DNA of 33,105 bases from Thermodesulfobacteriota bacterium (GTDB lineage: Bacteria; Desulfobacterota; Desulfobacteria; Desulfobacterales; JAUWMJ01), in NCBI GenBank assembly GCA_034189135.1, contig JAXHVO010000109.1:1-33105 (forward strand), read 5' to 3'. The notes under the pieces are model-generated. The model worked only from the letters and a program-made list of their open reading frames with translations, was not told where the DNA came from and did no database searches. Both the position numbers and the translations under genes were made by a program. Shown in pieces: positions 9,138 to 29,027 of this stretch. The number at the start of each line of letters is the position of its first letter. The first letter of the stretch is position 1.

Positions 9138-9323
9138 TTAAAATTCAACATTTCCGGCATAGCCTGTTGACGGCTCTGAAGAAATATCGAGCGCAGGTTC
9201 TTTAAAAGCTTCAGTTTCTTTATAAGCGACGTCGATTTCGCAGTCAGGAAAGAGTTCTTTAAGCAATACAATTAAACCAGAGTCAGGCTCTGGCCGGCTT
9301 GTTTTAATCACTATTTTTTTCAC
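9138..9323 (-). CDS. Small 61-aa protein of unknown function leading the phn operon
   Basis: I do not recognise this protein. It begins with GTG at 9323, preceded by AAGGGAG at a good spacing (7-9 bp), which is the main reason to accept it as a gene. The product is acidic and soluble, with no membrane segment: a hydrophobic-basic start (KKIVIKTSRP), a helix-like middle (GLIVLLKELFPDCEIDVAYKE) and a Ser/Gly-rich end. The LLKELFPDCEIDV pattern has the look of a small alpha/beta domain. It sits between a candidate Pho box and phnG, so it would be made from the same mRNA as C-P lyase. A role as a phn accessory or regulatory peptide is inference from position only. Confidence 0.6.
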   Translation of the reverse strand: MKKIVIKTSRPEPDSGLIVLLKELFPDCEIDVAYKETEAFKEPALDISSEPSTGYAGNVEF

Positions 9324-9475: not shown

Positions 9476-10534
9476 TTATATATTTTTTCCTATCACGTAA
9501 AAAGACAGGTTTGAGCCGGTGACATGACTTTTTCCCAAAAATAGAAAAGAAATGATCCATATCGCCTGGATAAAAATAATCAGCTCCGGTGTCCACAGGG
9601 ATTTGATTCCAATGACAATCTCCGGTCTTACTGGGTATTGCAGCGGGAAAAATGATAAAATGATTGCAGAGTATATCACCATCACGATACTCATAATCTG
9701 GTAGGCGGTTATCTTTCCATTACCTCTGTAGTCTGCCCGGAAAAATTCGGACAAAAATCGCCACAACTGGGTGATGCAGATGGAAATCATAAATGCAAAG
9801 GGGTATTGCCCTCTGAGAAAAAAATACATGCTGATTAAACCTGTAATAAGATAAATCACTGAGGTGATCGCCTGAACGGGAATTACCTGTTCGCCTTCCA
9901 GACCACCGGCATATGCGATCTTTTTTGTTTTACCGTAAAAGCGAAAAGATAATTTTTTAAAAAAATTGCGGAATAGCGGATGAATTTCACAAACGGGTCT
10001 GCCGTAACAACAACCGAAACTGATACATGCCAGTCTGCCTGCTCCCTCTCCAAATGTGTAAGCAATTGAAAGTGATGCGAGAATCGGAATTACCGGCAAA
10101 TCAACTCTTATCCACATGTGGCTGATATAATCAAACAACAGGATCAACCACGGTCCCATTATGATACCCACAAAACTGGCACCTGCTACGGTAAAGGTAA
10201 AAGACTTCTTTTCTACCAGTTTTGCAATGAGGCTGGAAGCAGGCATGCAGACCCCAAGATAGGCGGTGACTATCATCAACACGGCAGGCTCCGGAATACC
10301 CATCCCGCCTAACAGAACAAACAAAATCGTAATTGCCAGAGCAAATGCGTTTGCATTGAAAAAACCGTAATAGGTGAAATTAATACCCTGCCACTTATTG
10401 CCCACAACTTTTTTCACCGGTATAGAGCCGATGATCTGCCATTTTTCCTTGGGCAGGTTTTTAAAACACCAGACAAGTCCTAAAGCAATAGCGGTGCCGA
10501 AACAGATAATGAAAAGTTCATTGTTCATATTCAT
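9476..10534 (-). CDS. Lgt-like (prolipoprotein diacylglyceryl transferase family) membrane protein
   Basis: Multi-spanning membrane protein of 352 aa. The segment FGEGAGRLACISFGCCYGRP (about 161-180) matches the Lgt-family signature of a G-x-x-G-R-x-x-C-F-x-x-G-C-C-Y-G-x-P type found in divergent family members. True Lgt transfers diacylglycerol from phosphatidylglycerol to the cysteine of prolipoproteins. This protein has an atypical N-terminal third and may act on another acceptor. It shares a 4-bp ATGA overlap with the decarboxylase-like gene upstream and has a good AAAGGAGTAA ribosome-binding site. The pairing with a PSD-like enzyme suggests lipid chemistry. Whether it is the housekeeping lgt or a paralogue cannot be told from this window; the odd context favours a paralogue. 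Confidence 0.75.
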   Translation of the reverse strand: MNMNNELFIICFGTAIALGLVWCFKNLPKEKWQIIGSIPVKKVVGNKWQGINFTYYGFFNANAFALAITILFVLLGGMGIPEPAVLMIVTAYLGVCMPASSLIAKLVEKKSFTFTVAGASFVGIIMGPWLILLFDYISHMWIRVDLPVIPILASLSIAYTFGEGAGRLACISFGCCYGRPVCEIHPLFRNFFKKLSFRFYGKTKKIAYAGGLEGEQVIPVQAITSVIYLITGLISMYFFLRGQYPFAFMISICITQLWRFLSEFFRADYRGNGKITAYQIMSIVMVIYSAIILSFFPLQYPVRPEIVIGIKSLWTPELIIFIQAIWIISFLFLGKSHVTGSNLSFYVIGKNI

Positions 10535-11568
10535 TTACTCCTTTTGGCAATTTGGGATCTTACCGACACTTCGGTTTCCACCAGAGATTTCCCAAATCCT
10601 TCAGAAAAACGGCTGTGCGCAGTAGGGTGATGAAGATTCTGCAAAATATCGTTGGAAAACCGGATTCTGTCTTTTTGGAAAATAAGCACAACCACCGAAC
10701 TCCCCGGGCGAAACAGGCTTTTAGGTCGTCCCCGTTTCAGAAACATGCCGGGGTCTATTCCCACAGGATTATCATAGCGATCTTCAGAGTAACTCTGAAC
10801 AATATCGCCTATCATCAATGCCACAATCTCTATCATGGCCACCAAGCCTAATCCTGTACCCCCCTTGACGTTGGTATCTATCACCGTTACAACTCTTTTA
10901 TTCTTGCTAAAAGGTGAGGCAACCTCAATAACCGCTCCTGGATTGCAGGAGTGGTATCTTCCGCTAATTTCGTAAATATCGAGAACCTTTCCTGCGACCG
11001 GTGTATGATTGTAGTGGTATTTTTCCGGTGTGAGGCGAAATATTGCGAAATCACCATTTTTAAACTCATCGATCCATCTGGTCCTAGAATCCCACAGAGA
11101 TCTGTCACTAATAAGTTCTTTAAAATCGAAGAATTTTTCTTTAATAAATAGTATGTGCTGGCTATAAAAAGAACCTGCCAGCATTTTAGAATCGGCAGGT
11201 GAAACGGCGCTGTTAGATTCATCCGGAAGGGGTCTGAGTTCCCAGTAGCGTATTTTCCTTTCAAAAATCTTTCTATAAGTGTTAAAAGTCTCCGGTGGAT
11301 CAATGCTTTCGGAAAGGTCTATGCCGAGTTTGCGGACAAGGTTTTTTGTTCCATTAAGCGAAGGCCTCATTGGGCAATCGTAGTTCAAGTATCCCAGCAG
11401 GCTAGAGGTTCTTGAAGAGGTCAGGGCATTAAGAAGCCAGGGCATGCGTTCCTTGAAGGAGGAGTAAAAAAACTTGATGATACGGTCGCAAATAAGGCTT
11501 TCTGTTCTAACCTGTTTTGAATTTCTTTCTATATACTGATGAACGTTTTCATTCTTTGCCAACATCAT
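10531..11568 (-). CDS. Phosphatidylserine decarboxylase-like protein (pyruvoyl family)
   Basis: Pyruvoyl-dependent decarboxylase family; the best known member turns phosphatidylserine into phosphatidylethanolamine. The catalytic elements are present in order: SPADS with Asp126, RLTPEKYHYNHTPVAGKV with His188, and the self-cleavage site LFRPGSSVVVL, where Gly289-Ser290 would split to form the pyruvoyl group. These correspond to the Asp-His-Ser residues of E. coli Psd (90, 147, 254). Length is 345 aa, with an N-terminal region of about 110 aa before the core that resembles the longer PSD subfamily. It overlaps the 810-aa gene and the Lgt-like gene by 4 bp each. The substrate may be PS or another serine-bearing head group. 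Confidence 0.82.
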   Translation of the reverse strand: MMLAKNENVHQYIERNSKQVRTESLICDRIIKFFYSSFKERMPWLLNALTSSRTSSLLGYLNYDCPMRPSLNGTKNLVRKLGIDLSESIDPPETFNTYRKIFERKIRYWELRPLPDESNSAVSPADSKMLAGSFYSQHILFIKEKFFDFKELISDRSLWDSRTRWIDEFKNGDFAIFRLTPEKYHYNHTPVAGKVLDIYEISGRYHSCNPGAVIEVASPFSKNKRVVTVIDTNVKGGTGLGLVAMIEIVALMIGDIVQSYSEDRYDNPVGIDPGMFLKRGRPKSLFRPGSSVVVLIFQKDRIRFSNDILQNLHHPTAHSRFSEGFGKSLVETEVSVRSQIAKRSK

Positions 11569-13997
11569 GAATTGCTTTCCATATTTTTTTCCATCTGCAT
11601 ATCATTATGGATGCATAGAAGCATAAGATGTATCAGTTTTTCCAGCACCTTTTCCGATGCTCGCTCATGGATTACTTCTTCGCGAACAGATGCCATAAAA
11701 TCGGAAGCACTTCTTCCTGCAAGGATATCAAGCAGTGGTTTGTTGTAATACCCCTGCCTCCACGTTTTCCAGGAATCAATGCAGATAAGATCGTTTCTGA
11801 ATATGTCAAAAGCTTCTTGCATCTGTTTTTTTCTTAGATCGTAAAGGTAGTAATTTTCTGCACAGGTTAAAAATTCGTCCGCCGGCATTCTCATTGGTGA
11901 CTTTTCGCCTGCAGATTCAAGTATTCCCTGCGTGAGCCTGGACGACACTGAGTAAATATCCGGATGATTCAACCTTTTATCAAGATCCTCCATGGTGGAG
12001 GCAAGTCCCATGGTTTCAATAAGGGTTTTTCCATCCTCCATCAAAGTAGACAAAAGGGCTTTTTTATATTCGGTGTTATACACTCGAATATATCCGGAGT
12101 ATCTATGACTCATTCGGGTTTTTTTAGTCTTTTTGATAATTTTCTTCAGAAAGTTGTTGGCAGTGTCTTCCTTCACAAAAAAGGTGGGAATTCCGATGGC
12201 GGCACCAAAGAAAATCTGCCTTCTTTCGCTTTCTATAAAAGGTGAATCAGGGATATCTCCGTGACAGACCTCCCCGGAAAATATATACTGAAAGGCAAGT
12301 GCGGTGATCAGCCCTTGGAGATCTGCTGCAGGGGCCAAGTCATTTGGAATACTTTCAAACATGCTGTAGTATCTGCCTTCAAAACCTGAAAACCCCATGG
12401 CTGAATATTCACGCTGGCGGTAGAGCAGATAGAGCGGCATCTTGGGATGAAACACCCCCATTGAATAAAGATCCTCCTTAAGGCGCTTGTCGTTTCCAGG
12501 CATTCCATTGAAAGCAGGGCTCTCCGGGCTGCTCATCAGACAGACCAGGTAATCGATCAGCCTGAAATCCCCTATGAAGTCACCTTTGAGGCCAAACAGC
12601 TTACTTATTATATGATCCAGCCATTCCGGTCCGAAAGGTGTAAACGGATGGCGGAAAACCGAGTTTTTCGCCTTTTTTTTCCACCTGCGCCAGATCATCC
12701 TCAAATGAGTCGTGTCAAGCTCGTGAGGCAAAAACCCAAGTACCCGCTCCGGATGAAAATCGGTAAAGTTAAGGCGATAGGGTGCGGCGCTGTATGTTCC
12801 TACAAAAAGCGGAAGAAAATGCTCGGTTATCTTTATGACAAGGTCTCCCAGATTTTTTTCAGCATAGGTCCCGAAATCGGAGGTGTCATGTTTAAGAAAT
12901 TGAGTTAACTTGCGGCTTGCCAGAGTGAGGTGGGTGCCGTTGTTCGCCAGGCTGATATTGGACATATTGGGAAGTACCACCAGATTGTTGGTGATAATTC
13001 CGCTATTCTTCAATTTTATAATCGCATTTAAATGGCTTCTGGATAAAACTTTATGGCACAAGGCCATGTATTTGTGCTTCTCCTCTCCACAGTCCCATCC
13101 GGAAAGACAGGGGCTCATGAAAAGTTCTCGATAGAATTCATCGGATATCATCCCGTTTAATTTTCGCTGACGTAAAGGCGGGTTGGGAGCAAAGCAGACG
13201 ATTACTTTCTGCCCCTGCGAAAGCAGTCCATATCTTTGGTTTGCATACATTACCAGAAGCTGACACAATAGAAAACGGGTGGAAGTCTCCTTTGCTATTC
13301 CCTTCCCGTTTTGATTTCTTCCGGTAAAAGTCACAGGAAAGAAAGAGAAAGTTTCCGGAGAGGTGTTATCACTGAGAAAATGAACCATCAGCTGGCGTCC
13401 GGTATCTCGGGAAATTTTGTTCAACCCAGGAGAGTCGGTGATTTCAGCCAGGGCAAGCTTCAAAAGATAGCTCACCGGAATACGTATGAGTTCTTTCCCC
13501 TTTTTAGTAATTTTGAATTTATGCACATCCTTTCTTAAAGGGCCTATAGGAAAGCGTTTGTCTGCGATCAGGTCTCTTTCAAAAACAAGGTGTGCATATT
13601 TACCCAGGCGGCGAGCAGCAAAACGAACCCAGGAGTTTTCCCAGGTAAGAGATGAATTTTCTTCTATAAACTGGTCAATATCAGCAATTACCTTACGGTG
13701 TGTGTCCCCGGTGCTCACCATTTTTTTGTAATTTTTGAAAAAGCGTGATTCCCTGATGGTCAGCGGAAGATCTACCTCGTGACTATTTCCTGTGACTACG
13801 GCCATCATTTCATTTTCTGTGCCTGCTGTAATATCATCAGTATAGAAGGGCAGAGACGAAGCAACCCTTTCCGGGCTGCCCGAACGAACTCCCAACAGCC
13901 CTTTTAAGTGCTGGATATCCGGAGGCTTATCCTTATCTTCCCTGCAGGTGCTAATTACCTTTAAAAGGCGACCTGCATTTGAGGCACCTGTTTTCAT
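11565..13997 (-). CDS. Unrecognised 810-aa protein coupled to a PSD-like and an Lgt-like gene
   Basis: I do not recognise this family. The product is long, basic and apparently cytoplasmic, with no signal peptide and no clear membrane helix. The start has GAGGAG six bases upstream. The region 537-645 looks like a folded enzymatic core: SGFEGRYYSMFESIPND, ADLQGLITALAFQYIFSG, then H579 and DIPDSPFIESERRQIFFG, AIGIPTFFV and SHRYSGYIRVY. An earlier segment, FTGRNQNGKGIAKETSTRF (about 225-242), also looks conserved in style. No Walker, radical-SAM, acyltransferase HxxxxD or nucleotidyltransferase motif was found. Its last 4 bp overlap the start of the PSD-like gene, so it heads a three-gene coupled operon and probably works with a phospholipid-type substrate. 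The gene shows no frameshift or truncation. Confidence 0.85.
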   Translation of the reverse strand: MKTGASNAGRLLKVISTCREDKDKPPDIQHLKGLLGVRSGSPERVASSLPFYTDDITAGTENEMMAVVTGNSHEVDLPLTIRESRFFKNYKKMVSTGDTHRKVIADIDQFIEENSSLTWENSWVRFAARRLGKYAHLVFERDLIADKRFPIGPLRKDVHKFKITKKGKELIRIPVSYLLKLALAEITDSPGLNKISRDTGRQLMVHFLSDNTSPETFSFFPVTFTGRNQNGKGIAKETSTRFLLCQLLVMYANQRYGLLSQGQKVIVCFAPNPPLRQRKLNGMISDEFYRELFMSPCLSGWDCGEEKHKYMALCHKVLSRSHLNAIIKLKNSGIITNNLVVLPNMSNISLANNGTHLTLASRKLTQFLKHDTSDFGTYAEKNLGDLVIKITEHFLPLFVGTYSAAPYRLNFTDFHPERVLGFLPHELDTTHLRMIWRRWKKKAKNSVFRHPFTPFGPEWLDHIISKLFGLKGDFIGDFRLIDYLVCLMSSPESPAFNGMPGNDKRLKEDLYSMGVFHPKMPLYLLYRQREYSAMGFSGFEGRYYSMFESIPNDLAPAADLQGLITALAFQYIFSGEVCHGDIPDSPFIESERRQIFFGAAIGIPTFFVKEDTANNFLKKIIKKTKKTRMSHRYSGYIRVYNTEYKKALLSTLMEDGKTLIETMGLASTMEDLDKRLNHPDIYSVSSRLTQGILESAGEKSPMRMPADEFLTCAENYYLYDLRKKQMQEAFDIFRNDLICIDSWKTWRQGYYNKPLLDILAGRSASDFMASVREEVIHERASEKVLEKLIHLMLLCIHNDMQMEKNMESNS

Positions 13998-14411
13998 TTT
14001 TGCTCCTCATTTGAACCATTTCTTTCGTCCAGTAACTGCCAACATAATCAGGCAACAGGCTAAAAGCATTGATTTGAAAGGCCTTGTGAAAATCCAAATG
14101 ACATATATAAAACAAAATTAATATTTGGTTTTTATAAAATAAAGGTTAGTTTATTGTGAAAAATGCAATGGGGCTTTTTCTACAGGAGTGATCTCAATTC
14201 AAGCTGACTTATCTTTTAAGATTTTCCTCAAGATGATTCAATCGAAAGGCTTCAGGGATCGAGTGCGGTCCTTCTTTTATATCCTTTTTCAATGTGACTG
14301 CTGAAGATCAACAATAAAATGGTTCTCACATATATAAAAAAGTGAAACACTGATTGACTTTCTTCAGTTCTTTGTTGGTATGTTTAATAGAAAGGGATAT
14401 GAGAAGTATAT
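13998..14411. other. 414-bp intergenic region upstream of the 810-aa gene
   Basis: AT-rich, with no ORF that has a believable start. It should hold the promoter of the 810-aa/PSD/Lgt-like operon. It contains one weak Pho-box-like pair (listed separately) and two copies of the short string CATATATAAAA (around 14102 and 14329) that may be chance. No strong terminator hairpin for the DUF2062 gene was found. Confidence 0.5.
14145..14162 (-). promoter_or_regulatory. Weak Pho-box-like pair upstream of the 810-aa gene
   Basis: On the minus strand the units TTTTCAC (14162-14156) and AACTAAC (14151-14145) are 11 bp apart with spacer AATA. Only two units are present and the second deviates at one position, so in such AT-rich sequence this could be chance. 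If real, the lipid-type operon would belong to the Pho regulon. Confidence 0.25.
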
Positions 14412-14915
14412 TTAGTCAGTGGTAAATATCTTTGAGTGCTTTTTCAAAAGAGGTAACAAACTAAAGTATAAAATGATCGCAATTGGAGGGCAAATTAATA
14501 ACCATGCAACCACTGCATGAAAAATTACCATTCCTAAAGTTTGAAAAAAATAAAATCCATCTGATTGAAACATGGTCATCAATTCTTCTGGTTTTGTGAA
14601 AGGAATTGGCGAAGCATTAAAGATATGCTTTCCTATTTTAAAAAATGGCACCAGCATAATCAACCACAGCGGATAAACCGCATAATTAACCACTTGAATG
14701 GCGGCATGATTAAGGCGAAATATGAGTGCAGCCATGAAACATAACAATGTCGTACCGTAAAACGGAAAAATGCCTAGTGTAATTCCCAATGCAGCACAGA
14801 GAGCTAGTTTTTTGGGTGATATTCCTTTTTTAGTAAATTTAAAAAAAGTCGGGTTGTTTTGTAATTTTTTAGACCAAACATTTACTACTCCTCCTGCTAT
14901 CTGACGCCTGCCCAC
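14412..14915 (-). CDS. DUF2062 membrane protein
   Basis: Small membrane protein of the DUF2062 family. The signature is ISPKKLALCAALGITLGIFPFYGTTLLCFMAALIFRLN, followed by the AVYPLW helix and one further pair of hydrophobic segments to the C-terminus. Members often lie beside glycosyltransferase or lipid genes, and this one is upstream of a PHP/glycosyltransferase fusion that is transcribed divergently. Function is not established. The start is doubtful: the only in-frame start is a GTG at 14915 without a good ribosome-binding site, whereas AGGAGG with an ATG at the right distance lies inside the gene near 14880 but in another frame. Length as called is 167 aa. Confidence 0.75.
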   Translation of the reverse strand: MGRRQIAGGVVNVWSKKLQNNPTFFKFTKKGISPKKLALCAALGITLGIFPFYGTTLLCFMAALIFRLNHAAIQVVNYAVYPLWLIMLVPFFKIGKHIFNASPIPFTKPEELMTMFQSDGFYFFQTLGMVIFHAVVAWLLICPPIAIILYFSLLPLLKKHSKIFTTD

Positions 14916-15181
14916 GTTTATTCGAAAAAAAGTTTCATATACAAGAGCTAACTCTTTTTCAGATAAGAGACAACACTTTCAATTCGTTAAACCAAAAACT
15001 ATTGTAATTCTCATCCAAGACAAACAGTCCACCCCTAGTATATGACAAATGCTGAACCCCTGGGCACAGGAGATGAAAGGCGCCAGTATGAAAACAGGGA
15101 TAGTTCACAGAATCTACCGATGGGTCGGTCCATTGGGACATAGTGAGAATTCATCCAATTTGTTGAAAAAGGAGGCTGTTG

Positions 15182-17671
15182 ATGATGAAAAGCACATCTT
15201 TGAAAGCTGATTTTCACGTTCATTCTATGCACTCTAAGCGGCCATCAGAATGGATTTTAAAAAAAATAGGGTGTTCAGAAAGCTATACAGAACCGCTCTA
15301 TATATATCGGATTGCCAAAAACCACGGGATGACTCATGTTACCATTACTGATCACAACGCAATAGACGGCGCACTTGAAATAGCCCATTTGCCGGATACC
15401 TTTATAAGCGAGGAGGTGACGTCATATTTCCCTGATAATGGCTGTAAGGCACATATTTTGGCAATTAATATTACCGAAGAACAGCATCGAGAGATTCAAA
15501 AGTATCGTGCAAACATTTTCGACTTAACCGCCTATATGGCAAAGGAAGGAATACTTAATATAATCGCCCATCCCCTTTACGCGATTAACGATCGGTTAAC
15601 CCTGGCCCATTTTGAGCAAATGCTTCTTCTTTTTAAAAATTTTGAACTGAACGGTGCACGCAACAGCCGAGAAAATCAATGCCTGAGAAAAGCGCTCAAT
15701 GCCCTTACTCCCAAAAATATTGAACGTATGGCGGATAAATACAATATGGAGCCTTTGCATGAACGCCCGTGGGAAAAAAATTTTTTCGGAGGATCGGATG
15801 ATCATAGTTCCTTAAATATTGCGCGTACATACACGGAAATAGAAGGAATCGAAACGCCTGAGCAGCTCACACCAGACGTTAATGGTTGCCGGTTGAAGGT
15901 GGTCAACCACCCTGCGACTCCTCAGACGATGGCAATGAACCTCTACAGCATTGCTTATCAGTTTTACTGCAGTAAATTCGATCTTCAACGCCATACGAAC
16001 AAAGATATTTTGCTGCGCTTTTTAGAACAAAGCCTTCGGCCGGATATTAATAATACTCAGGGACTTTTTACCAAAATTTATTTGATCTGGAATCACCGCA
16101 GAGCTAAAAAAGCAAAATTATCCGTATCTGATTCCTTAATTGCGCTTCTGCGTCGGGAAACCGAAAAGATTATCAGCGATGATGCTGACTTTTTTGCTTC
16201 ATGCTCCCCTGATGCAAACGATTTCAAAAAGCAGGAACAAAAATGGTTCAACTTCGTTACCCGTGCCTCCAACCGGGTGATGCTGCATTTCGGCAATCAT
16301 TTTTTAGATAATCTATCCGGCGCCAACGTGTTCAACATTTTCCACACCATCGGTTCCGCCGGAGGACTGTATACTCTGATGGCGCCTTATTTCGTATCCT
16401 TTTTGCAGTTTTCCAAGGACCGTTCCTTAACCTCTCAAATCATCAGGCGCTATATTGGCACACCAGCCGGAACATCTGATCGATCCGCAGACCCTCAGCA
16501 CAAGGACCGGGTCAATGTGGCGCATTTTACGGATACTTTTTATGAGGTTAACGGAGTCGCACGTACCTTGCAACAGCATGTAAAGTTAGCCCTTAAAAAT
16601 AAAAAAAATTTGACCGTGGTGACCTGTCACGATCCGGTATGTACAGAACAGGCCGGAGTTAAAAACTTCAAGCCCATAGGTGTGCATACGCTACCTGAGT
16701 ACCCCGAGTTGAAAATCTTTTTCCCACCATTGCTGGAAATGATTAACTACTGTTATGAAAAGGGATTCAATCATATTCACACCGCCACCCCCGGCCCCAT
16801 AGGGCTGGCAGCTCTGGCAGCAGCTAAAATCCTCAAGCTTCCCATCAGTGGAACTTATCATACCGCCATACCTCAATATGCCCATATTCTGACCGGAGAT
16901 CAGGGTATCGAGGATATCGCCTGGAAATATATCCTGTGGTATTATGATCAGCTGGATATCATCTACGCCCCCTCTGTGAGTACCAGGGATGAACTTGTTC
17001 AAAAAGGAATCAACACTGATAAAATCGTGGTCTATCCCCGTGGAATAGACATCAAACGTTTTCATCCTGAAAAGAAAAACGGTCTTTTAGACAAGTTATT
17101 CTCAATAAAGAATGGCCTGAAGTTGATTTATACAGGACGCGTATCTAAAGAGAAAAATCTTCATTTGCTGGAAAATGCTTTCCGGCGGCTGGCCGGCCTG
17201 GTTCCCGGCCTAAATCTGATTGTTGTAGGTGATGGCCCATATCTTGAGCAAATGAAGGCAGCCACCAAAGACTTACCGTGCTATTTTACAGGATACCTGA
17301 AAGGGGAGACTCTGGCCGAAGTTTATGCTTCCGCAAATCTATTTGTTTTTCCCAGCGCGACAGATACCTTCGGCAATGTGGTTCTCGAAGCCCAGGCATC
17401 CGGCCTACCGGTTATTGTCACCGACAAAGGCGGCCCTTTCGAGAATATGCTGCCCGGTGAAACCGGTCTGGTGGTTAAGGCCGGCGATGCCAATAGCCTA
17501 TTTTCCGCAATGAAGACATTGGTCAAAGACCCTATACGTCTCAGGCAGATGGGCCAGGCCGCCCGCCGATATATGGAGCATCGTTCATTTGAAAGCGCCT
17601 TCATCCACACGTGGCAGATGTACAATCAGAACCACCAGAAAATAGTTCATCCGATCACACAGGTTGCTTGA
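15182..17671 (+). CDS. PHP-domain phosphoesterase fused to a GT4 glycosyltransferase
   Basis: The 829-aa protein has two domains. Residues about 8-240 form a PHP (polymerase and histidinol phosphatase) metal-dependent phosphoesterase: DFHVHSMHS (His12, His14), TDHNAIDG (Asp57-His58), a later IIAHP and GGSDDH near 203-208. Residues about 445-815 form a GT-B glycosyltransferase of family 4: FTDTFYEVNGVARTL at its start, VYPRGIDIKRFHP, IYTGRVSKEKN, LIVVGDGP and the nucleotide-sugar motif PSATDTFGNVVLEAQASGLPV. The middle part is unassigned. GT4 relatives with this opening include mannosyl- and sulfoquinovosyl-type lipid glycosyltransferases. I chose ATG 15182, 7 bp after AAGGAGG; a TTG just upstream is less likely. 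It is the only long plus-strand gene in the island and converges on the radical SAM gene. Confidence 0.88.
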   Translation: MMKSTSLKADFHVHSMHSKRPSEWILKKIGCSESYTEPLYIYRIAKNHGMTHVTITDHNAIDGALEIAHLPDTFISEEVTSYFPDNGCKAHILAINITEEQHREIQKYRANIFDLTAYMAKEGILNIIAHPLYAINDRLTLAHFEQMLLLFKNFELNGARNSRENQCLRKALNALTPKNIERMADKYNMEPLHERPWEKNFFGGSDDHSSLNIARTYTEIEGIETPEQLTPDVNGCRLKVVNHPATPQTMAMNLYSIAYQFYCSKFDLQRHTNKDILLRFLEQSLRPDINNTQGLFTKIYLIWNHRRAKKAKLSVSDSLIALLRRETEKIISDDADFFASCSPDANDFKKQEQKWFNFVTRASNRVMLHFGNHFLDNLSGANVFNIFHTIGSAGGLYTLMAPYFVSFLQFSKDRSLTSQIIRRYIGTPAGTSDRSADPQHKDRVNVAHFTDTFYEVNGVARTLQQHVKLALKNKKNLTVVTCHDPVCTEQAGVKNFKPIGVHTLPEYPELKIFFPPLLEMINYCYEKGFNHIHTATPGPIGLAALAAAKILKLPISGTYHTAIPQYAHILTGDQGIEDIAWKYILWYYDQLDIIYAPSVSTRDELVQKGINTDKIVVYPRGIDIKRFHPEKKNGLLDKLFSIKNGLKLIYTGRVSKEKNLHLLENAFRRLAGLVPGLNLIVVGDGPYLEQMKAATKDLPCYFTGYLKGETLAEVYASANLFVFPSATDTFGNVVLEAQASGLPVIVTDKGGPFENMLPGETGLVVKAGDANSLFSAMKTLVKDPIRLRQMGQAARRYMEHRSFESAFIHTWQMYNQNHQKIVHPITQVA

Positions 17672-17737: not shown

Positions 17738-19015
17738 TCAAAAACCTTGCATCCGACTGTAGTCAGGTGGTTTTCGTCCGTTAAAAAAACCACAGGCCCG
17801 GTAGTACTTCAGGTCATCAATCCATAAGCGAAAATAATGGCTATCGCGGCACATCTTTTTGAAGGCACCCTGAGGACGCAAAAGGCCTGAAATTAATGGT
17901 CCAAAGAGCTCTGATGGATCCCGAAAACATTCCCAGTCACACTTTCGGCAGACAGCATTGCGGTCTAAACTATTTCGGTCCATACTCCAATACTTGCCAA
18001 GGTTTTCATTGCCCCGGTAGCCACAGGGATAAGTGTTGCCATCCTTTGCGTCGATAAAGAAGAAATCCAATCCCCCGCGGCACGGATAGGGAAATGTAGA
18101 ATTATCGGTATACTGCTTGTAAAGCGCATAGAGAGAGGTTATCGGAGAAAATAACCGTATTTTCGATCTGAATTCGGGTACGGTTTCCAGAAGCGCCTTA
18201 AAAAGCAATGCCTTTTCCCTATTATTGAACTGAACAATGCGATCTTCGGAAGTTGCCGAGTAAACCGGCTTCAGACCGGCTATGTCTTTGTTATCCTCCA
18301 CGCTCATCGGGTAGCAGGTGCTTACCATGGTAAAACCCAATTCAATAACGAATTGATAGAACTTTTTAAAGGCGGTTTTAAATGTCCGGTCAAAGGATTG
18401 CATGTCAACATTTTCTTTTGCAGGTGTGGCTACTCTAGCATTTCTGGTCATATCTCCCATGACATTTCTGTTAATTCCTAAATTTGCCGAAGGGTGCATA
18501 CCGTGCTCATGAAAAATGGGCAGAGCCTTTTCAATGCCTTGTATCACACCGGGCAATCCTCTCATCTTTTCGTGGATAGATGGGATAACGGAATCAATGC
18601 TGATCCAGAAATTTCGCAGTGGTGTGCCGGCCAGTGCTTCCACAATCTTATTCACCCTTGATTGAAAACGAGGACTACGGGGGTTAGCAAACATAAAGCC
18701 GTTTGTTCCTGTACGTATGTAGTCGATTCCTGCTTCTCCCGCATACTTGATGAACATGACAAGATCTTCCAGAAAAAGAAGAGGTTCTCCTCCGGTAAAA
18801 CTGACCACCCGGACACCTCTTTGTGCTGCGGCATCAATAATGCGTTTGACAACGTCGAGGGATAAGGTGGAGCGCCTGAATTTTTCCGTTACCCTCATGC
18901 CACATTGGGGGCAAAGGGCATTACACTTATCGGTAAACTGGATGATTAACTGTTCGGGTACTTTTTTACGCCACAGATCAATAACATGTCTATGTAATGG
19001 CAACGGTTTGTCCAT
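17738..19015 (-). CDS. Radical SAM protein with SPASM-like C-terminal cysteines
   Basis: The cluster-binding motif CNALCPQC (Cys31, Cys35, Cys38) and the VVSFTGGEPLLF segment define a radical SAM enzyme. The C-terminal half carries further cysteines (FPYPCRGGLDFFF, NTYPCGYRGNENLG, CRKCDWECF) arranged as in SPASM/twitch domains, which bind auxiliary Fe-S clusters. Length is 425 aa. The substrate is unknown. No precursor peptide gene is visible next to it, so peptide maturation is not supported. It is transcribed toward the PHP/glycosyltransferase gene, with only 66 bp between the stops, and lies 104 bp downstream of the MBL gene in the same direction, so it may be the distal gene of the STAS-MBL operon. 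Confidence 0.85.
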   Translation of the reverse strand: MDKPLPLHRHVIDLWRKKVPEQLIIQFTDKCNALCPQCGMRVTEKFRRSTLSLDVVKRIIDAAAQRGVRVVSFTGGEPLLFLEDLVMFIKYAGEAGIDYIRTGTNGFMFANPRSPRFQSRVNKIVEALAGTPLRNFWISIDSVIPSIHEKMRGLPGVIQGIEKALPIFHEHGMHPSANLGINRNVMGDMTRNARVATPAKENVDMQSFDRTFKTAFKKFYQFVIELGFTMVSTCYPMSVEDNKDIAGLKPVYSATSEDRIVQFNNREKALLFKALLETVPEFRSKIRLFSPITSLYALYKQYTDNSTFPYPCRGGLDFFFIDAKDGNTYPCGYRGNENLGKYWSMDRNSLDRNAVCRKCDWECFRDPSELFGPLISGLLRPQGAFKKMCRDSHYFRLWIDDLKYYRACGFFNGRKPPDYSRMQGF

Positions 19016-22153: not shown

Positions 22154-23926
22154 CTATTCCGGCAGGTGAATGGTAAAGGTACTTCCTTTGCCCGGAGTGC
22201 TGTCAACCGTTATTTGCCCGCCGTGGGCCTGGACGATATGTTTAACAATGGCAAGACCCAGGCCGGTGCCTCCCTGCTCGCGGCTTCTGGCCTTGTCAAC
22301 GCGGTAAAACCTTTCAAACAGGCGGGGCAGGTGTCTTTTTGAAATGCCGATGCCGCTGTCTTTAATACTAAGGGAAACACCGGAAGCAGTCTTTACCGCG
22401 TTGATTTGAATCTTACTTTTTTCACTGCTGTATTTGATGGCATTACCAATCAGGTTTACCACGGCTTGTTCAAAAAGTACCGGTTCGATGTTGGCCTCCA
22501 GCAAATCGTCACAGGTAAAATCTATTTCTATCTGTTTTGCGTCGGCCTCGGTCCGGCAAATCCTCACTGAAGAGGTAATCACTTTTTTTACTGCTGTTTT
22601 TCTCAGCTGAATCAGATTTGCCTCGTTTTCCTTTTCAATTCTGGAAAGATGCAGAAGATCATCAATAATCGCCCCGAGACGGTTTACATGTTTTTCGATG
22701 ATGGATAAAAACCGGTTCGCTTCTTTTTCATTGTCCTTGGCGCCGCTTTGAAGTGTCTCCACAAAGCCCTTAATGGCGGTTAAAGGGGTTTTTATTTCAT
22801 GGGAAACATTGGCCACAAAGTCCTGTCGCATCCTTTCCAGACGTCTTAGCTGAGTCACGTCGTTTAATACCAGCAGGGTGCCGATGCGCTTTTCTTTGGC
22901 ATTGCGAAGGGGGGAGGCATTGGCATTTAAAATGCGATCGCCGTTATGATATAGAGTAATGTCACTCTTTATCGGGATGTTACTTTTCTGAGCTTTTTCC
23001 ATAAATTCGGAAAGCCTGGTGTCCCTGATTATTTCCTGGAGGCTCTGGTTTTTTTCAGCAGCCGACAGTTTTTCAAGCATGTCTGCCGCAGTCTGATTGA
23101 AGCTTAAGATGTGTTCATTCATGTCCAGGGCAATCACTCCTTCAGCCATACTGGACAGTACTGCCTCAATTTGATTTCGTTGATTGACCTCAGTTTCTAT
23201 CTGTTTGGCCATGTTGGCCGCCATCAGGTTCATCGCTTCAGCAAGATTTGCGGCTTCGGTTATGCCTGGAGAGGATAAACGGTATGTAAGATCGCCTTTG
23301 GCAAAATGTTCAGCCCCCTTTCTCATTTCTTCAATGGACCTGCTGATGCGTCGTGAGATATAAAAACATATCATTGCAGCAAACAGGGCGATAAAAAATC
23401 CCCCGAGAGTGATTCTGTCCTGAATGATGCCAAGCTCCTTATCGACTTCGGTTAAAGGAATGGATGTTCTTAATATGGCTTCGAGCCTGTGAGAAGATAT
23501 TATGGGAAGGGCGACATACATCATTCTTTTATCAAGGGTTCTGCTGTATCTGAGAGCGCTTCCCGCCGGTTGCGACAGGGCTTTTAGAAATTCAGGGCGA
23601 TCGGCATGACTGTCCATCACAGCCGGGTTTTCATCTGAGTCACCGATTACCCTGCCGTTGGGAAGGATCACCGTCACCCGAATCCGGGCGGAATTCCCTA
23701 TTTGTTTACATAAACGATCAATCTCTTTTGGATACAAAGGCTTCAGATGCGGTTCAACCATCTCTTTAATGATTCGACCCTGGGTCTTAAGGCCTTCAAT
23801 GGTCCTTTCCAGGAAATAGTCGCTTAAAAAACTTGAAGCATACCAGCTAACCACACCCAGGGCAACCAGGGTGATCATCAGATAAGTGGGAAAAAGCAGC
23901 CATATTAAGCGAATGGTTTTTTTCAT
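22154..23926 (-). CDS. phoR: Phosphate regulon sensor histidine kinase PhoR
   Basis: Membrane-bound kinase that phosphorylates PhoB when phosphate is low. Order of domains: transmembrane helix about 9-31, a periplasmic sensor region about 32-170 (unlike E. coli PhoR, which has almost none), second helix about 174-192, HAMP linker about 190-245, PAS domain about 252-360, HisKA with VANVSHEIKTPLTAIKGFVE (His376) and a C-terminal ATPase with NLIGNAIKYS, DSGIGIS and GGTGLGLAI. The 590-aa size matches the long PhoR form common outside enterobacteria. The start overlaps the phoB stop by 4 bp. Confidence 0.93.
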   Translation of the reverse strand: MKKTIRLIWLLFPTYLMITLVALGVVSWYASSFLSDYFLERTIEGLKTQGRIIKEMVEPHLKPLYPKEIDRLCKQIGNSARIRVTVILPNGRVIGDSDENPAVMDSHADRPEFLKALSQPAGSALRYSRTLDKRMMYVALPIISSHRLEAILRTSIPLTEVDKELGIIQDRITLGGFFIALFAAMICFYISRRISRSIEEMRKGAEHFAKGDLTYRLSSPGITEAANLAEAMNLMAANMAKQIETEVNQRNQIEAVLSSMAEGVIALDMNEHILSFNQTAADMLEKLSAAEKNQSLQEIIRDTRLSEFMEKAQKSNIPIKSDITLYHNGDRILNANASPLRNAKEKRIGTLLVLNDVTQLRRLERMRQDFVANVSHEIKTPLTAIKGFVETLQSGAKDNEKEANRFLSIIEKHVNRLGAIIDDLLHLSRIEKENEANLIQLRKTAVKKVITSSVRICRTEADAKQIEIDFTCDDLLEANIEPVLFEQAVVNLIGNAIKYSSEKSKIQINAVKTASGVSLSIKDSGIGISKRHLPRLFERFYRVDKARSREQGGTGLGLAIVKHIVQAHGGQITVDSTPGKGSTFTIHLPE

Positions 23927-24615
23927 GAAATATCCTTGAACCTGTAACCGACCCCTCTGACTGTCTCTATATACTTTCCTAAAGGACCGAGTTTTTTTCT
24001 AAGTCCTACAATTTGGACATCCACGCTTCGGTCGGTAACCGGATAATCATCACCTCTAATACCATCCACAATCTGCGAACGGGTAAATACCCATCCAGGC
24101 CGCCGGGCAAGCAGGAACAGGATTTGAAATTCGGTAAAGGTCAGCTCCACGGGGCTTCCTTTGACTGATACACTCCGCCTGCCTGGATGGATTTCAAGAT
24201 CGTGGATGTGAATCACAGACTGCAAATCGACTGTTTCTTCCTTTTGTCTTCTGAGGGCAGCACGAATTCTGGCCAGAAGAACTCGCGGGGAAAAGGGTTT
24301 GGTGATGTAATCGTCTGCCCCGAGTTCGAGACCGGCAACAATATCGGCTTCCTCCCCTTTTGCGGTGAGCAGTATGGTGGGGATATGCATTGTTTTTGCA
24401 TCTTTTTTTAGTTTTTTCAGTACGTCCAGACCGTCTATACCCGGAAGCATCAGATCGAGCAAAATAAGATCCGGATTTTCCGACCGTGAGCTCCTTAATG
24501 CCGTTTCACCGGACAGGGCTTTTATGATTTTATAACCTTCTTTTTCTAAATTATAACCGATCAGTTCCAGTATATCTTTTTCGTCATCCACAATAAGGAT
24601 TTTATCTCCGGACAT
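23923..24615 (-). CDS. phoB: Phosphate regulon response regulator PhoB
   Basis: OmpR/PhoB-family transcription factor. The receiver domain has the acidic pair Asp10-Asp11, phosphoacceptor Asp54 in LILLDLMLPGIDG, LLTAKG and YITKPFSP. The C-terminal winged helix has VELTFTEFQILFLLARRPGWVFTR, a recognition helix region around TDRSVDVQIVGLRKKLG and the closing ETVRGVGYRF. Length is 230 aa. AAAGAGGAAAT precedes the ATG. It should bind tandem 7-bp repeats such as those noted upstream of pstS, phn and the STAS gene. It lies between phoU (19 bp) and phoR (4-bp overlap). Confidence 0.95.
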   Translation of the reverse strand: MSGDKILIVDDEKDILELIGYNLEKEGYKIIKALSGETALRSSRSENPDLILLDLMLPGIDGLDVLKKLKKDAKTMHIPTILLTAKGEEADIVAGLELGADDYITKPFSPRVLLARIRAALRRQKEETVDLQSVIHIHDLEIHPGRRSVSVKGSPVELTFTEFQILFLLARRPGWVFTRSQIVDGIRGDDYPVTDRSVDVQIVGLRKKLGPLGKYIETVRGVGYRFKDIS

Positions 24616-24634
24616 ATTTCCTCTTTTTATTCAT

Positions 24635-25291
24635 CTATAGTTTTCCGTGCCGTACAATTTCACCTTCTATCATATAAATGACCTCTTCTGCAATATTGGT
24701 GGCATGGTCCGCCAGACGTTCCAGGTGCCGCGAAATAAGAAGCAGGTTAATCAGATAACTGACCTTATCAGGATGTTGCGAAATGGCTGTTTTTATCAAA
24801 CGATATGCCTCTTCTTTTTTTGCATCCACTTCGTCATCCAATACCAGCACTTTAAGTGCGAGATCATCATCCATGTTTACCAGGGCATCCAAACTCATTT
24901 TAAGCATGGTTTCCGCTTTTTCAGCCATGACGGAATAGTCGAAGATAAAATCAGATCCTTCTTTTTTGGTGATCGTCTTCACTCTTTGGGCGATATTTAC
25001 CGCCTGGTCTCCTATTCTTTCAAGGTCATTGTTGATCTTTATCACCGCCACCAGAAATCGAAGATCAACGGCCACCGGCTGATGCAGGGCAATTATTTTC
25101 AGACATTCTTCTTCGACTTCAACTTCCATCTCGTCGATTTCATGGTCAGAGGCAATGATCTTTTGCGAAATCTCGCCATCAAATTCCTCAATGGCTTTGA
25201 TGGCCATTCGAACGTTTTCTTCCACCATTGCCCCTAAAGAAAGTATCTTTTTCTTAATTTTTTCCAGCTCTCTATGAAAGTGCTTTGTCAT
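24635..25291 (-). CDS. phoU: Phosphate signalling protein PhoU
   Basis: Cytoplasmic helical protein that links the Pst transporter to PhoR and keeps the regulon off when phosphate is plentiful. It contains two PhoU repeats with the family sequences IASDHEIDEMEVEVEEECLKI, LRFLVAVIKINNDLERIGDQAVNIA and LLLISRHLERLADHATNIAEEV, which carry the conserved E/DxxxD metal-binding motifs. I set the start at 25291 (ATG after GGAGACACTAAC), giving 218 aa, the normal size. A longer in-frame start inside pstB would add a non-conserved 36-aa leader and is not accepted. The gene lies 13 bp after pstB. Confidence 0.94.
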   Translation of the reverse strand: MTKHFHRELEKIKKKILSLGAMVEENVRMAIKAIEEFDGEISQKIIASDHEIDEMEVEVEEECLKIIALHQPVAVDLRFLVAVIKINNDLERIGDQAVNIAQRVKTITKKEGSDFIFDYSVMAEKAETMLKMSLDALVNMDDDLALKVLVLDDEVDAKKEEAYRLIKTAISQHPDKVSYLINLLLISRHLERLADHATNIAEEVIYMIEGEIVRHGKL

Positions 25292-25304
25292 GTTAGTGTC
25301 TCCA

Positions 25305-26066
25305 TTACCCAAATCGGCCCGTGATATAGTCTTCGGTCTGTTTGAGTTTCGGTCTGGTAAAAAGGGTATCGGTATCACCTGTTTCAATGAGTTTTCCAAT
25401 ATAAAAAAAAGCGGTTATATCTGAAACCCTTGCCGCCTGCTGCATATTGTGAGTCACAATGATGATGGTATAAAATTCTTTTAAGGTTTGTATCAGCTCT
25501 TCTATTTTCTGGGTGGCGAGGGGATCCAGCGCCGAAGCCGGTTCATCCATCAGGATCACCTCGGGCTTTATCGCCAGGGCACGGGCGATACATAACCGCT
25601 GCTGCTGGCCGCCTGAAAGACCCAGTGCCGATTCATGGAGCCGGTCTTTGACCTCGTCCCACAAAGCCGCCTGCTTAATGCTTTCCTCAACACGCCGGGC
25701 CACATAGGCTTTGTCCTTTATTCCGTTTACAATAAGTCCATAGGCCACATTATCATAAATCGTTTTGGGAAAGGGATTTGGTTTTTGGAAAACCATGCCC
25801 ACTCGCTTTCTGAGCAGCACGACATCCAGAGATGATGCATACATATCCTGGTCTTCAATCATGATTTTTCCCTCAACACGGGTCCCCGGGATTAAATCGT
25901 TCATCCTGTTCAAACAGCGTAAAAAGGTGCTTTTGCCGCATCCGGAGGGTCCGATAAGGGCGGTTACCTGACGGTCGTAAAAATCAAGGGAAATATCATG
26001 AAGGGCCTGAAAGTCTCCATAATAAAAGTTAAGGTTTTCTGAAGTAATCTTTAAAGCTTTATCCAT
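25305..26066 (-). CDS. pstB: Phosphate ABC transporter ATP-binding protein PstB
   Basis: ATPase of the high-affinity phosphate importer. It has Walker [10 protein letters not shown], the PstB-specific [18 protein letters not shown] segment, Q-loop [22 protein letters not shown], signature [13 protein letters not shown], Walker [14 protein letters not shown] and H-loop [13 protein letters not shown]. Length is 253 aa. AAAAGGAAAAAC precedes the ATG. It is 11 bp after pstA and 13 bp before phoU. Confidence 0.96.
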
Positions 26067-26077
26067 TGTTTTTCCTT

Positions 26078-27025
26078 TTATTGCAGTCTCCTGCGTAATC
26101 TTAAACGGTAAATAATGGCAATCAGATTCATTCCTAAAACAAGTGCGATTAAGACAAGGGCGGTGCCGTATTGAAGGTGTCGGGTCACTTCTATTTCAGT
26201 TCCTGCGGTGGCCAGGACATAAATGTGATATGGAAGGGCCATGACTTCGTCAAAAATGGATGTTGGCAGAACCGGTGTGAAAAATACTGCACCGGTAAAC
26301 ATAATGGGCGCTGTTTCTCCGGCGGCCCGACTAATGCCTAATATGGCGCCGGTGAGGATGCCCGGCATGGCGGAAGGGAGTACCACCTTTCGAATGGTTT
26401 GCCACTTGGTTGCTCCCAGGCCGAGAGATGCTTCTCTGTAAGTATCCGGAACCGCTTTCAAGGCTTCCTCGGTAGCGCCGATAATGACCGGCAAAGACAT
26501 GGCCCCAAGTGTTAGAGCTCCGGCAATGATGCTGACCCCCATTTTTAATATCACCACAAAAAAGGCCAGACCGAAAAGACCGAATACCACCGACGGCACG
26601 CCTGCCAGATTATTTATTCCCAGCCGGATCAGTCTTAGAGCACGTCCGGGACGGGCATATTCGTTGAGGTAAATGGCTGATGCGATGCCGATGGGCATGG
26701 CAACGATAATGGCTCCAATACTTAGGGAGAATGTTCCCACAATACACGGAAGAATCCCTCCCTTGGTCATGGAGTCTATTGGCGGCTGGGTCAAAAATGT
26801 CCAGGTAATTGCCTTCCAGCCGTTTTTTACCATAAAAAAAACGATAATAAACAGCGCAATACCGTTGATCACTGCGGCAATACGGAAAGCCGAAAAAGCA
26901 ACAGACTGAAAAATTTTTCTGCGGACCCCGCCAGAAGCGGATTGAACCGGGGTGGCAATTTCCTTGTACTCTGCCTGTTTGCCGGTGGTAGCTAATTTTA
27001 AATTTTTACCTAATAGAAAAGCCAT
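26078..27025 (-). CDS. pstA: Phosphate ABC transporter permease PstA
   Basis: Membrane subunit of the phosphate importer. It has six predicted helices and the family segments [36 protein letters not shown] and the coupling loop [33 protein letters not shown], followed by [17 protein letters not shown], which is typical of PstA. The 315-aa protein has a cytoplasmic N-terminal stretch of about 45 residues before the first helix. The ribosome-binding site at 27025 is weak. The gene is 60 bp after pstC. Confidence 0.95.
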
Positions 27026-27085
27026 GGTTTCTGCCTGTGTTTTATTGAAAAATGTCAGTGATACAGTTTTGAATTTATTATTTAG

Positions 27086-27979
27086 TTATAATGATGCTTC
27101 ACCGGTCTGTCTATATTTAAATGCAATATGGTCCGCAATCAAATTGAAGACAAGGGTAAATAAAAATAGTACAATTCCGGTGGCAAATAGAGCGAAATAA
27201 TGTTCTCCTCCCACAGGAGCTTCCGCCATTTCCGAAGCAATGCTTGCCGGCATGGGCCTGACCGGATCGAAAATAGATTCGGGCAGCATGGCCGCTCCGC
27301 CTGCCACCATCAAAACCACCATGGTTTCTCCAATCGCCCGTGACAGCCCAAGGATAACCGCTGTGCTGATCCCCGAAATAGATGCAGGCAGGATCACCCT
27401 GACAATCGTTTCCAGGTGTGTCGCCCCAAGGGCCATGGAAGCTTCCTTCAGGGCCAACGGTACGCTGTGTATGGCATCTTCGGAGATACTGCATATGGTA
27501 GGAATTGACATAAATGCCAGCATGAGTGACGCATTAAAAAGGTTTAGCCCGGTAGGGATATTAAAAACATTCTGCAGAAAGGGAGCCACCAGTACCATGC
27601 CGAAAAAACCGATCACCACGGAGGGAAGGGCGGCCAAAAGCTCAACCACAGGTTTAAAAATCTCGGAAACCTTTTTGGATGCAATTTCAGCCAGAAAAAC
27701 CGCAGTCATCACACCAAGGGGTATGGATATCACCGCTGAGACAAAGGTAACCACCACAGAAGCCACAATCAGCGGAAAAATTCCAAAATCAGGAGGTTCA
27801 GATGTGGGATACCAGTAGTGGCCGAACACAAAGTCTTTGATGGAAACAGTTTTAAAAATCGGCAGGCCTTCTTTGAAAAGAAAAACCATAATCAGAAAAA
27901 GGGTGGTAATAGAAGCCATTGCAATGAGGAAAAAGATTTTCTGTACCGACTTTTCTACGGTCTGTCTCTTTAGTGCCAT
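27086..27979 (-). CDS. pstC: Phosphate ABC transporter permease PstC
   Basis: Membrane subunit paired with PstA. Family marks: a GLPIFKTVSIKDFVFGHYWYP loop, SIPLGVMTAVFLAEIASKKV, LAALPSVVIGFFGMVLV, the coupling loop EASMALGATHLETIVRVILPASISGISTAVILG and RAIGETMVVLMVAGG. Length is 297 aa. CGGGAGTATAA precedes the ATG. It follows pstS after a 143-bp gap that carries a long perfect inverted repeat, which may set the ratio of pstS to transporter mRNA. Confidence 0.95.
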   Translation of the reverse strand: MALKRQTVEKSVQKIFFLIAMASITTLFLIMVFLFKEGLPIFKTVSIKDFVFGHYWYPTSEPPDFGIFPLIVASVVVTFVSAVISIPLGVMTAVFLAEIASKKVSEIFKPVVELLAALPSVVIGFFGMVLVAPFLQNVFNIPTGLNLFNASLMLAFMSIPTICSISEDAIHSVPLALKEASMALGATHLETIVRVILPASISGISTAVILGLSRAIGETMVVLMVAGGAAMLPESIFDPVRPMPASIASEMAEAPVGGEHYFALFATGIVLFLFTLVFNLIADHIAFKYRQTGEASL

Positions 27980-27999
27980 TTATACTCCCGTGGTGGTGC

Positions 28000-28050
28000 G
28001 CAAAGCGCATGGCCGGCAAATTTTAACCTAAGTTTTGCCATGCGCTTTGC
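28000..28050. repeat. Perfect 14-bp inverted repeat between pstS and pstC
   Basis: GCAAAGCGCATGGC (28000-28013) and its exact reverse complement (28037-28050) flank a 23-nt loop. An inner GGCAAA/TTTGCC pair competes with the base of the stem. No T-run follows on the minus strand, so it is not a normal terminator. It is most likely an mRNA stem-loop that protects or processes the pstS transcript; a small dispersed repeat element is the alternative. Confidence 0.65.
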
Positions 28051-28122
28051 TTCCCCGATCTTTCTAAGGAGAGGGCTGGGGGAAAATAGTACCACTTAAA
28101 ATAATATTGAAAAGAGTTCAGA

Positions 28123-28938: not shown

Positions 28939-29027
28939 TTTATCCTCCATAATGTTGTGATTAATAATATGAGTCAATTGTTAGATTTGTGTGAGTAAAC
29001 TGTAAAGATTTGATTAGATTTTCCCTC

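Follow-up and report, generated by a model that had tools for sequence, protein, structure and literature searches.

A conserved three-gene set with a predicted ligase of new type: a candidate pathway for an amino-acid-containing membrane lipid in sulfate- and metal-reducing bacteria

The locus and its relatives

The analysed stretch (the window) is contig JAXHVO010000109.1 of a Thermodesulfobacteriota bacterium (assembly GCA_034189135.1), 33,105 nucleotides long. It carries three genes encoding an 810-aa protein, denoted here U810, a protein similar to phosphatidylserine decarboxylase (PSD), and a membrane protein similar to Lgt (Table 1). All three are on the minus strand, and each adjacent pair overlaps by ATGA on the coding strand; the open reading frames (ORFs) and both overlaps, given in a preliminary description of this DNA as a sign of coupling, were confirmed. 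In general, the observation made in that description holds, and its interpretation is partly supported.

Related loci were collected by a scan of genome contigs; of 100 stretches that were confirmed, the best 80 underlie the counts below. By their labels these are mostly deltaproteobacterial (Desulfo- and Geobacter-type), with some Nitrospinae, Nitrospirae, Brocadia, and Planctomycetota. Downstream of U810, the PSD-like gene is found in 78/80 and the Lgt-like gene in 74/80 loci. Five of the six loci with no Lgt-like match (L007, L019, L035, L053, and L079) are at a contig end, the sixth being L076 (see below). Identity of the relatives to the window protein is 44–55% for U810, 50–59% for the PSD-like, and 35–51% for the Lgt-like protein. 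Proteins covering less than 85% of the query or containing internal stops or X were excluded from the family sequence sets; alignments A1, A2, and A3 took in 58/73, 53/67, and 31/74 available relatives, respectively.

The profile search in 297 genomes of the phylum yields U810 over at least 700 of 803 profile positions in 31 genomes, among them that of the window; one more hit, in G002, is limited to 57 positions. The PSD subfamily (at least 488 bits) and the Lgt subfamily (at least 420 bits) are each found in 32/297 genomes. All three profiles match in the identical 31 genomes (Fisher p = 3e-41 for the U810/PSD co-occurrence table, with kinship ignored); the additional genome with the PSD and Lgt subfamilies is G118, where the contig stops 143 bases beyond the PSD match, at the place where U810 would begin. 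All three genes are present in the culture-collection strains Desulfatibacillum alkenivorans DSM 16219, Desulfobacter vibrioformis DSM 8776, and Desulfogranum marinum DSM 2058.

Genes of the same Pfam families are also found outside the set: PF02666 in 31/32 set-bearing genomes (none found in G118) and PF01790 in 30/32 (none found in G160 and G280), the window's own genome having one additional PSD and three additional Lgt-family genes. We therefore rejected the idea that the two partners of U810 are the only housekeeping PSD and Lgt of their genomes. The preliminary description had raised that possibility, and also that of U810 homologues occurring mostly without their partners; neither is the case. 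The U810, PSD-like, and Lgt-like genes are supported as one inherited set, nearly always found together in sulfate- and metal-reducing bacteria, and the three very probably serve one shared pathway.

Table 1. Features of the window discussed in the text
Feature	Coordinates	Strand	Annotation
U810 (810-aa protein)	11565..13997	-	predicted glutamine synthetase/glutamate-cysteine-ligase-fold ligase; not assigned to any accepted family of Pfam, NCBIfam, PHROGs, PADLOC
PSD-like pyruvoyl decarboxylase, 345 aa	10531..11568	-	PF02666 2.1e-39; subfamily distinct from the genome's other PSD
Lgt-like membrane protein, 352 aa	9476..10534	-	PF01790 2.5e-08; GRxxCxxxGCCYG motif, without the HGG-motif His
Terminator-like hairpin	9275..9295	-	between the operon end and phnG; consensus scan only
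Degenerate candidate PhoB-type repeat, three 11-bp units	14133..14165	.	upstream of U810
DUF2062 membrane protein	14412..14915	-	PF09835 2.3e-11; upstream of the operon in the window
GT4 glycosyltransferase with N-terminal PHP-like region	15179..17671	+	PF00534/PF13439; accessory partner
Radical SAM protein, occasional partner	17738..19015	-	PF04055 1.5e-14; MoaA-like
phoR, phoB, phoU, pstB, pstA, pstC, pstS	22154..28977	-	NCBIfam
PhoB-type repeat, three units	28979..29011	.	before pstS; in-window yardstick

Predicted folds and conserved residues

The preliminary description could not place the 810-aa protein, and the database searches agree with it. The sole Pfam hit of the window U810 is GPAT_N, sub-threshold (E = 0.011), and when 58 relatives are included, each Pfam family is confined to at most two of these 59 proteins; the GPAT/acyltransferase reading was rejected, as this lone hit is absent from the 58 relatives scanned. 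Searches of NCBIfam and PADLOC gave nothing, and PHROGs one hit with E = 0.27. PF04262 and GCS2 have no hit at E ≤ 1 to the window U810 and are not among the families listed for the 58 relatives. Searching solved structures by sequence, with U810 or the Lgt-like family as query, led nowhere.

The AlphaFold2 model of U810, built with 59 sequences, has a predicted local distance difference test score (pLDDT) of 88.3 and a predicted template modelling score of 0.91. VIA-align superimposes it on Escherichia coli GshA (1v4g) with Z = 17.2 and root mean square deviation 4.2 Å over 414 aligned residues, this being the fold search that the preliminary description had proposed; other matches are YbdK (Z = 14.9), PafA (14.5), Dop (14.4), and, more weakly, type III glutamine synthetase (6.3). 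The top 20 rows are all of glutamate-cysteine ligase (GCS), YbdK, PafA, Dop, or glutamine synthetase (GS) type, unrelated rows starting from Z = 4.1. The top four Foldseek matches comprise a pair of bifunctional glutathione synthetases and a pair of glutamate-cysteine ligases (E = 0.037–0.16, probability 0.84–0.99), the best of them with E = 0.037 and probability 0.99.

Candidate catalytic residues that are invariant in U810 are Gly59, Glu61, and Glu63 (72/72 covering sequences) and Asp210, Glu215, His356, Glu540, and Arg542 (74/74). Matched by eye, the GshA motifs GLERE, DFAEALLE, GVH, and IEVR correspond, in the same order, to G59-T-E61-N-E63, D210..E215, NGTH356, and FE540-G-R542 of U810, the correspondence of D60..E67 with D210..E215 being the least certain, as the spacing differs. 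The metal and ATP ligands of E. coli GshA are Glu27, Glu29, Asp60, Glu67, His150, Glu328, and Arg330. In the model, Glu61/Glu63, His356, and Glu540/Arg542 of U810 sit on predicted strands. Judging by the model, U810 is probably an ATP-dependent carboxylate-amine ligase of the GS/GCS fold, forming a new subfamily; this is a fold-level statement, because the sequence comparison with GshA-type proteins is not significant. The predicted fold is common to U810 and GshA (PF04262), with YbdK/GCS2 (PF04107), PafA, and Dop as wider relatives, and the by-eye match puts the candidate metal/ATP residues in the order of those of GshA, whereas E. coli GshA has 518 aa vs. 810, shows no significant sequence match, and differs in partners and in apparent regulation. 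The earlier suggestion that U810 presents a head group is better replaced by this ligase reading.

The assignment of the second gene product to pyruvoyl decarboxylases by its Asp, His, and Gly-Ser residues was borne out. PF02666 matches it with 135.7 bits (cut-off 22), and its PAD and YHxxH motifs align with the solved PSD 7cnw, in an alignment spanning the Asp and His only. Asp126, His185, His188, and Ser291 are conserved in 74/74 covering sequences, Gly289 in 73/74, and Ser290 in 72/74, the last three residues forming the GSS motif. The subfamily is well separated: its profile scores 488–556 bits in the set, and no other listed hit (E ≤ 1e-10) exceeds 145 bits; eight further genomes have such hits. 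The closest known relative is the PRK00723-like PSD (NF001941), which matches residues 11–312 (2.2e-44) and shares the PAD, YHxxH, and GSS motifs; the PSD-like protein differs from it in staying under every listed NCBIfam cut-off (151.9 vs. 371 bits, 84.6 vs. 111.75 bits, others lower) and in forming a separate subfamily tied to U810.

The third protein had been assigned to the Lgt family, and here family and fold stand, while the HGG-motif His is missing. PF01790 scores 34 bits (cut-off 24.9). The model (pLDDT 93.3) matches E. coli Lgt (5azb) with Z = 13.3, the next row having 5.2; Foldseek gives E = 1.7e-03 and probability 1.00 with Lgt, and the profile alignment of the family with E. coli Lgt and three Lgt-family members encoded in the same genome as the window gives E = 8.6e-11. 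Arg259, Glu263, and Arg266 are found in 68/68 sequences, and Arg167 in 67/68. Arg167, Arg259, and Glu263 are the equivalents of Lgt Arg143, Arg239, and Glu243; His103 of the HGG motif is essential in Lgt. The HGG-motif His is absent, the aligned position 122 being occupied by Val (41), Ile (8), Ala (6), Thr (5), Leu (4), and Cys (3) among 68 sequences, and an invariant C-x4-CCYG stands in place of the Asn-Glu segment of Lgt, so that GRLGNFINGE of Lgt is replaced by GRLACISFGCCYG. The Lgt-like protein also differs from Lgt in having extra N- and C-terminal segments and in reaching only 27.6 bits vs. the NCBIfam cut-off of 334.

As the Arg143/Arg239/Glu243 equivalents are retained and the HGG-motif His is lost, the donor is plausibly bound in the manner of Lgt, with a change on the acceptor side. 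Protein lipidation is less likely, because this His is missing. The preliminary description suggested that the set builds an unusual lipid or a lipid-modified product; given its two recognisable partners, lipid chemistry is likely, a lipid-modified protein less so. Two Lgt-family paralogues outside the operon in the window's own genome (L084 and L085) carry a GCCYG or GCCFG motif as well and likewise lack the HGG histidine.

Link to phosphate and neighbouring genes

The phoR, phoB, phoU, and pstBACS genes of the window lie 8–15 kb from the operon. Among their products, phoU, pstB, pstA, pstC, and the pstS-family protein score above the NCBIfam cut-offs, the kinase above that of PnpS and below that of PhoR; PhoB is the best NCBIfam hit of its protein, under the cut-off (241.8 of 296.2 bits). 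Clear pst/pho genes within 10 kb are found in 11/80 loci (L001, L007, L013, L020, L027, L034, L037, L043, L048, L059, and L067), a tally that leaves out L016, L041, L056, L058, L072, and L077, with single, weak, or generic matches. In a paired control with the same genomes on both sides, the window's own genome (G000) left out, pst or phoU genes occur within about 9 kb of U810 in 7/30 loci, vs. 0/28 loci of housekeeping Lgt, that is, of PF01790 genes outside the set (p = 0.007).

PhoB-type repeats were analysed upstream of U810. According to PMC3333781, the E. coli PhoB box consists of CTGTCAT units separated by 4 bp (period 11), and that of Desulfovibrio vulgaris of (c/t)GT(n)AC units, for which the paper also gives a 4-bp spacer (period 10). 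The initial scan, in which the E. coli consensus was weighted by hand, distinguished U810 upstreams from 600 mixed upstream regions (Mann–Whitney p = 1.5e-06). The pattern TGTNA-N6-TGTNA is found upstream of U810 in 17/67 loci vs. 25/490 leading-gene controls (p = 8e-7, kinship ignored), near-duplicates (L005, L009, L024, and L078) and loci with less than 250 bp upstream having been dropped. With the gap filter applied to U810 as well, it is found in 14/52 upstreams. The peak is at period 11 only; periods 7–10 and 12–16 yield at most 3/67. The same repeat precedes pstS (3/4), phoB (2/4), the gene of the glycosyltransferase with the PHP-like region (PHP-GT4; 4/10), and unannotated genes (15/354), and is absent from the upstreams of phoU (3), pstA/pstB/pstC (11 together), phoR (5), and phnG (2). 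In a second set, the sole test on unused loci (24 of 30, the six whose contigs equalled first-set contigs in length having been dropped), the repeat occurs in 4/24 U810 upstreams vs. 0/526 controls; these controls are upstreams of any ORF of at least 200 aa, operon-internal ones included, and are easier than the leading-gene control.

In the window, the three-unit candidate upstream of U810 scores 18.9 vs. 8.3 ± 3.1 in 200 shuffles, with p = 0.06 for the best two-unit score; the matrix was built from five pst/pho promoters, the window's pstS among them. As the repeats are enriched overall and the window match is degenerate, PhoB control is tentatively supported at the level of the group, and the window operon has only a degenerate candidate repeat. 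Phosphate control of the set is likely in many hosts.

The preliminary description placed the operon next to carbon–phosphorus lyase and derived from this a tie to phosphate stress. The position is correct, with 419 bp to phnG, but not conserved: phnG/phnH matches are found in 1/80 loci (L043), and we rejected carbon–phosphorus lyase as a functional partner. The tie itself survives at the group level, through pst/pho neighbours and PhoB-type repeats rather than phn adjacency. The 419-bp gap contains a terminator-like hairpin, the terminator scan having yielded 13 sites in the region vs. a mean of 7.0 in shuffles. A defence or phage origin found no support in PADLOC or PHROGs, and the idea of an ether-lipid operon led nowhere.

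Several other genes accompany the set in part of the loci. PHP-GT4 is a frequent, though not obligatory, partner, since it is found in 14/32 set-bearing vs. 38/265 other genomes at E ≤ 1e-60 (p = 0.0002). Matches to this fusion (the window protein; L001:6612-9128; L002:6281-8746) thus occur in 52/297 genomes, some of them partial. Its gene separates the PSD-like from the Lgt-like gene in L001, together with a radical SAM gene, and in L122, together with a 735-aa ORF; in the L122 relative the PHP domain is below the cut-off. That ORF (L122:5610-7817), with no Pfam match, is located between the PSD-like and glycosyltransferase genes of a compact operon. Four tandem PhoB-type units precede PHP-GT4 in L001, and the fusion protein is a candidate phosphate-controlled glycolipid synthase. 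A protein of about 250 aa with weak similarity to DUF3108 (L002:8877-9629) has relatives in 10/81 loci; in L002, L003, and L019 its gene is divergent from that of PHP-GT4, with a PhoB-type repeat common to both between them.

Radical SAM relatives are found near U810 in 10/80 loci, many Cys residues being conserved in 10 sequences. DUF2062 relatives come after the Lgt-like gene in 13/80 loci, and in L002 a protein matching zinc-dependent phospholipase C (PF00882; L002:14922-15857) is encoded downstream of the DUF2062 gene. The cluster of phospholipase C-like ORFs is represented in 13/81 loci, always on the strand of the operon; such a protein could supply diacylglycerol.

A possible lipid pathway and its alternatives

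Lgt chemistry strips glycerol phosphate from phosphatidylglycerol, PSD chemistry requires a free alpha-amino acid head, and GCS-type ligases form amides from amines. By analogy with these, the Lgt-like protein would take a diacylglyceryl group from phosphatidylglycerol, place it on a small acceptor of serine or cysteine type, and release glycerol phosphate; the PSD-like protein would strip the alpha-carboxylate of the acceptor, as PSD does with phosphatidylserine; and U810, using ATP, would couple a carboxylate, possibly the gamma-carboxylate of glutamate, to the newly exposed amine. The product would be a zwitterionic diacylglyceryl lipid with an amino-acid-amide head and no phosphorus. The substrates, this phosphorus-free product, its membrane role, and the order of the steps are what we infer; the ligase and transferase steps may be reversed. 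That the three genes form a pathway for an amino-acid-containing membrane lipid, used under phosphate limitation in a good part of the hosts, is tentatively our preferred reading, held at somewhat less than an even chance. The detailed version, in which paralogues of lipoprotein, phosphatidylethanolamine, and glutathione enzymes were recruited to turn phosphatidylglycerol into a phosphorus-free zwitterionic lipid, an amino-acid amide of S- or O-diacylglyceryl-ethanolamine type, is doubtful, and equally doubtful is the notion that such a lipid might be the anaerobe's counterpart to betaine lipids.

A number of observations weigh against the lipid pathway. Desulforhopalus singaporensis (L076:9833-12256) has a U810 homologue with 46% identity, and neither partner is seen in the ORFs adjoining it, nor any subfamily-profile match in its genome. 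The class of U810 rests on the predicted fold and on motifs matched by eye: Foldseek search of PDB with the model finds nothing at E ≤ 0.001, and hhalign comparison of the U810 profile with nine GshA-type sequences gives a non-significant probability of 1.1%. The missing HGG-motif His makes a thiol or hydroxyl acceptor of the Lgt-like protein uncertain. As regards phosphate, two of the seven pst/phoU neighbours in the paired control are weak matches (27% and 30% identity), and when any Pho or Phn gene is counted, the difference is 7/30 vs. 1/28 (p = 0.03); the TGTNA pattern was picked after the result of the initial scan; the strict repeat is absent from 50/67 U810 upstreams, including that of the window; and many repeat-bearing loci are related (by label, Geobacteraceae and Desulfuromonadaceae).

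An alternative built on the same enzymes is that the set modifies phosphatidylethanolamine: the PSD-like protein would make phosphatidylethanolamine or an analogue, U810 would add glutamate or another amino acid to yield an aminoacyl phospholipid, and the Lgt-like protein would move or recycle the diacylglyceryl group. The PSD-like protein agrees with this by its family, its catalytic Asp and His residues, and its GSS motif, as does U810 by its ligase fold, but a phosphate-bearing product fits poorly with PhoB-type repeats and pst/pho neighbours, and 31/32 genomes retain another PSD for phosphatidylethanolamine; we regard this variant as unlikely.

Given that gamma-glutamylcysteine synthetase is the best fold match of U810, that true Lgt acts on a cysteine thiol, and that PF04262 is found in 0/99 sampled genomes of the phylum, where a thiol ligase could hence be missing, U810 might instead make a small thiol or gamma-glutamyl peptide, to be lipidated by the Lgt-like protein into a lipid-anchored thiol for metal or redox chemistry rather than a bulk lipid. 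This leaves no clear role for the PSD-like partner or the phosphate link, and runs against the loss of the HGG-motif His; moreover, 12 of these 99 do have the related GCS2 family, the genome of the window not being one of them. Such a thiol is still less probable than aminoacylated phosphatidylethanolamine. Least probable is lipidation of a dedicated protein or peptide, modified by U810 through isopeptide bonds in the manner of PafA and decarboxylated at its end by the PSD-like protein: the fold search with U810 does return PafA and Dop, but among neighbouring ORFs of at least 100 aa in the 81 loci compared, the only cluster found in more than 15 loci, apart from the set itself, is that of PHP-GT4/radical SAM (26 loci).

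The lipid pathway may be compared with known responses to phosphate limitation. Excerpts of the respective papers describe remodelling via PlcP and a glycosyltransferase (PMC4796936), glutamine lipids (PMC6298996), and, in D. alaskensis G20 at low phosphate, glycolipids and ornithine lipids, with two unidentified ones among the "other" lipids (PMC5193443). The common features with the PlcP/Agt glycolipids, OlsF ornithine lipids, and glutamine lipids are the link to phosphate limitation and the GT4 glycosyltransferase at part of the set loci; the difference is that no enzyme named in these excerpts resembles Lgt, PSD, or a GS-fold ligase. By title and abstract, no paper describing the three-gene set was recognised in open-licence PubMed Central. 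Lipid remodelling under phosphate stress is already known, and, as far as seen, these enzymes in such a role are new.

Since named culture-collection strains hold all three genes, the pathway is directly testable. If the lipid pathway is true, the response of anaerobes in sediments to phosphate would be extended by a new class of lipids and, in U810, by a new protein family with no accepted counterpart in the libraries searched, and lipid geochemists could trace a lipid of obscure origin by means of a gene marker; it would also mean that the folds of Lgt and PSD have been re-employed in small-molecule lipid synthesis.

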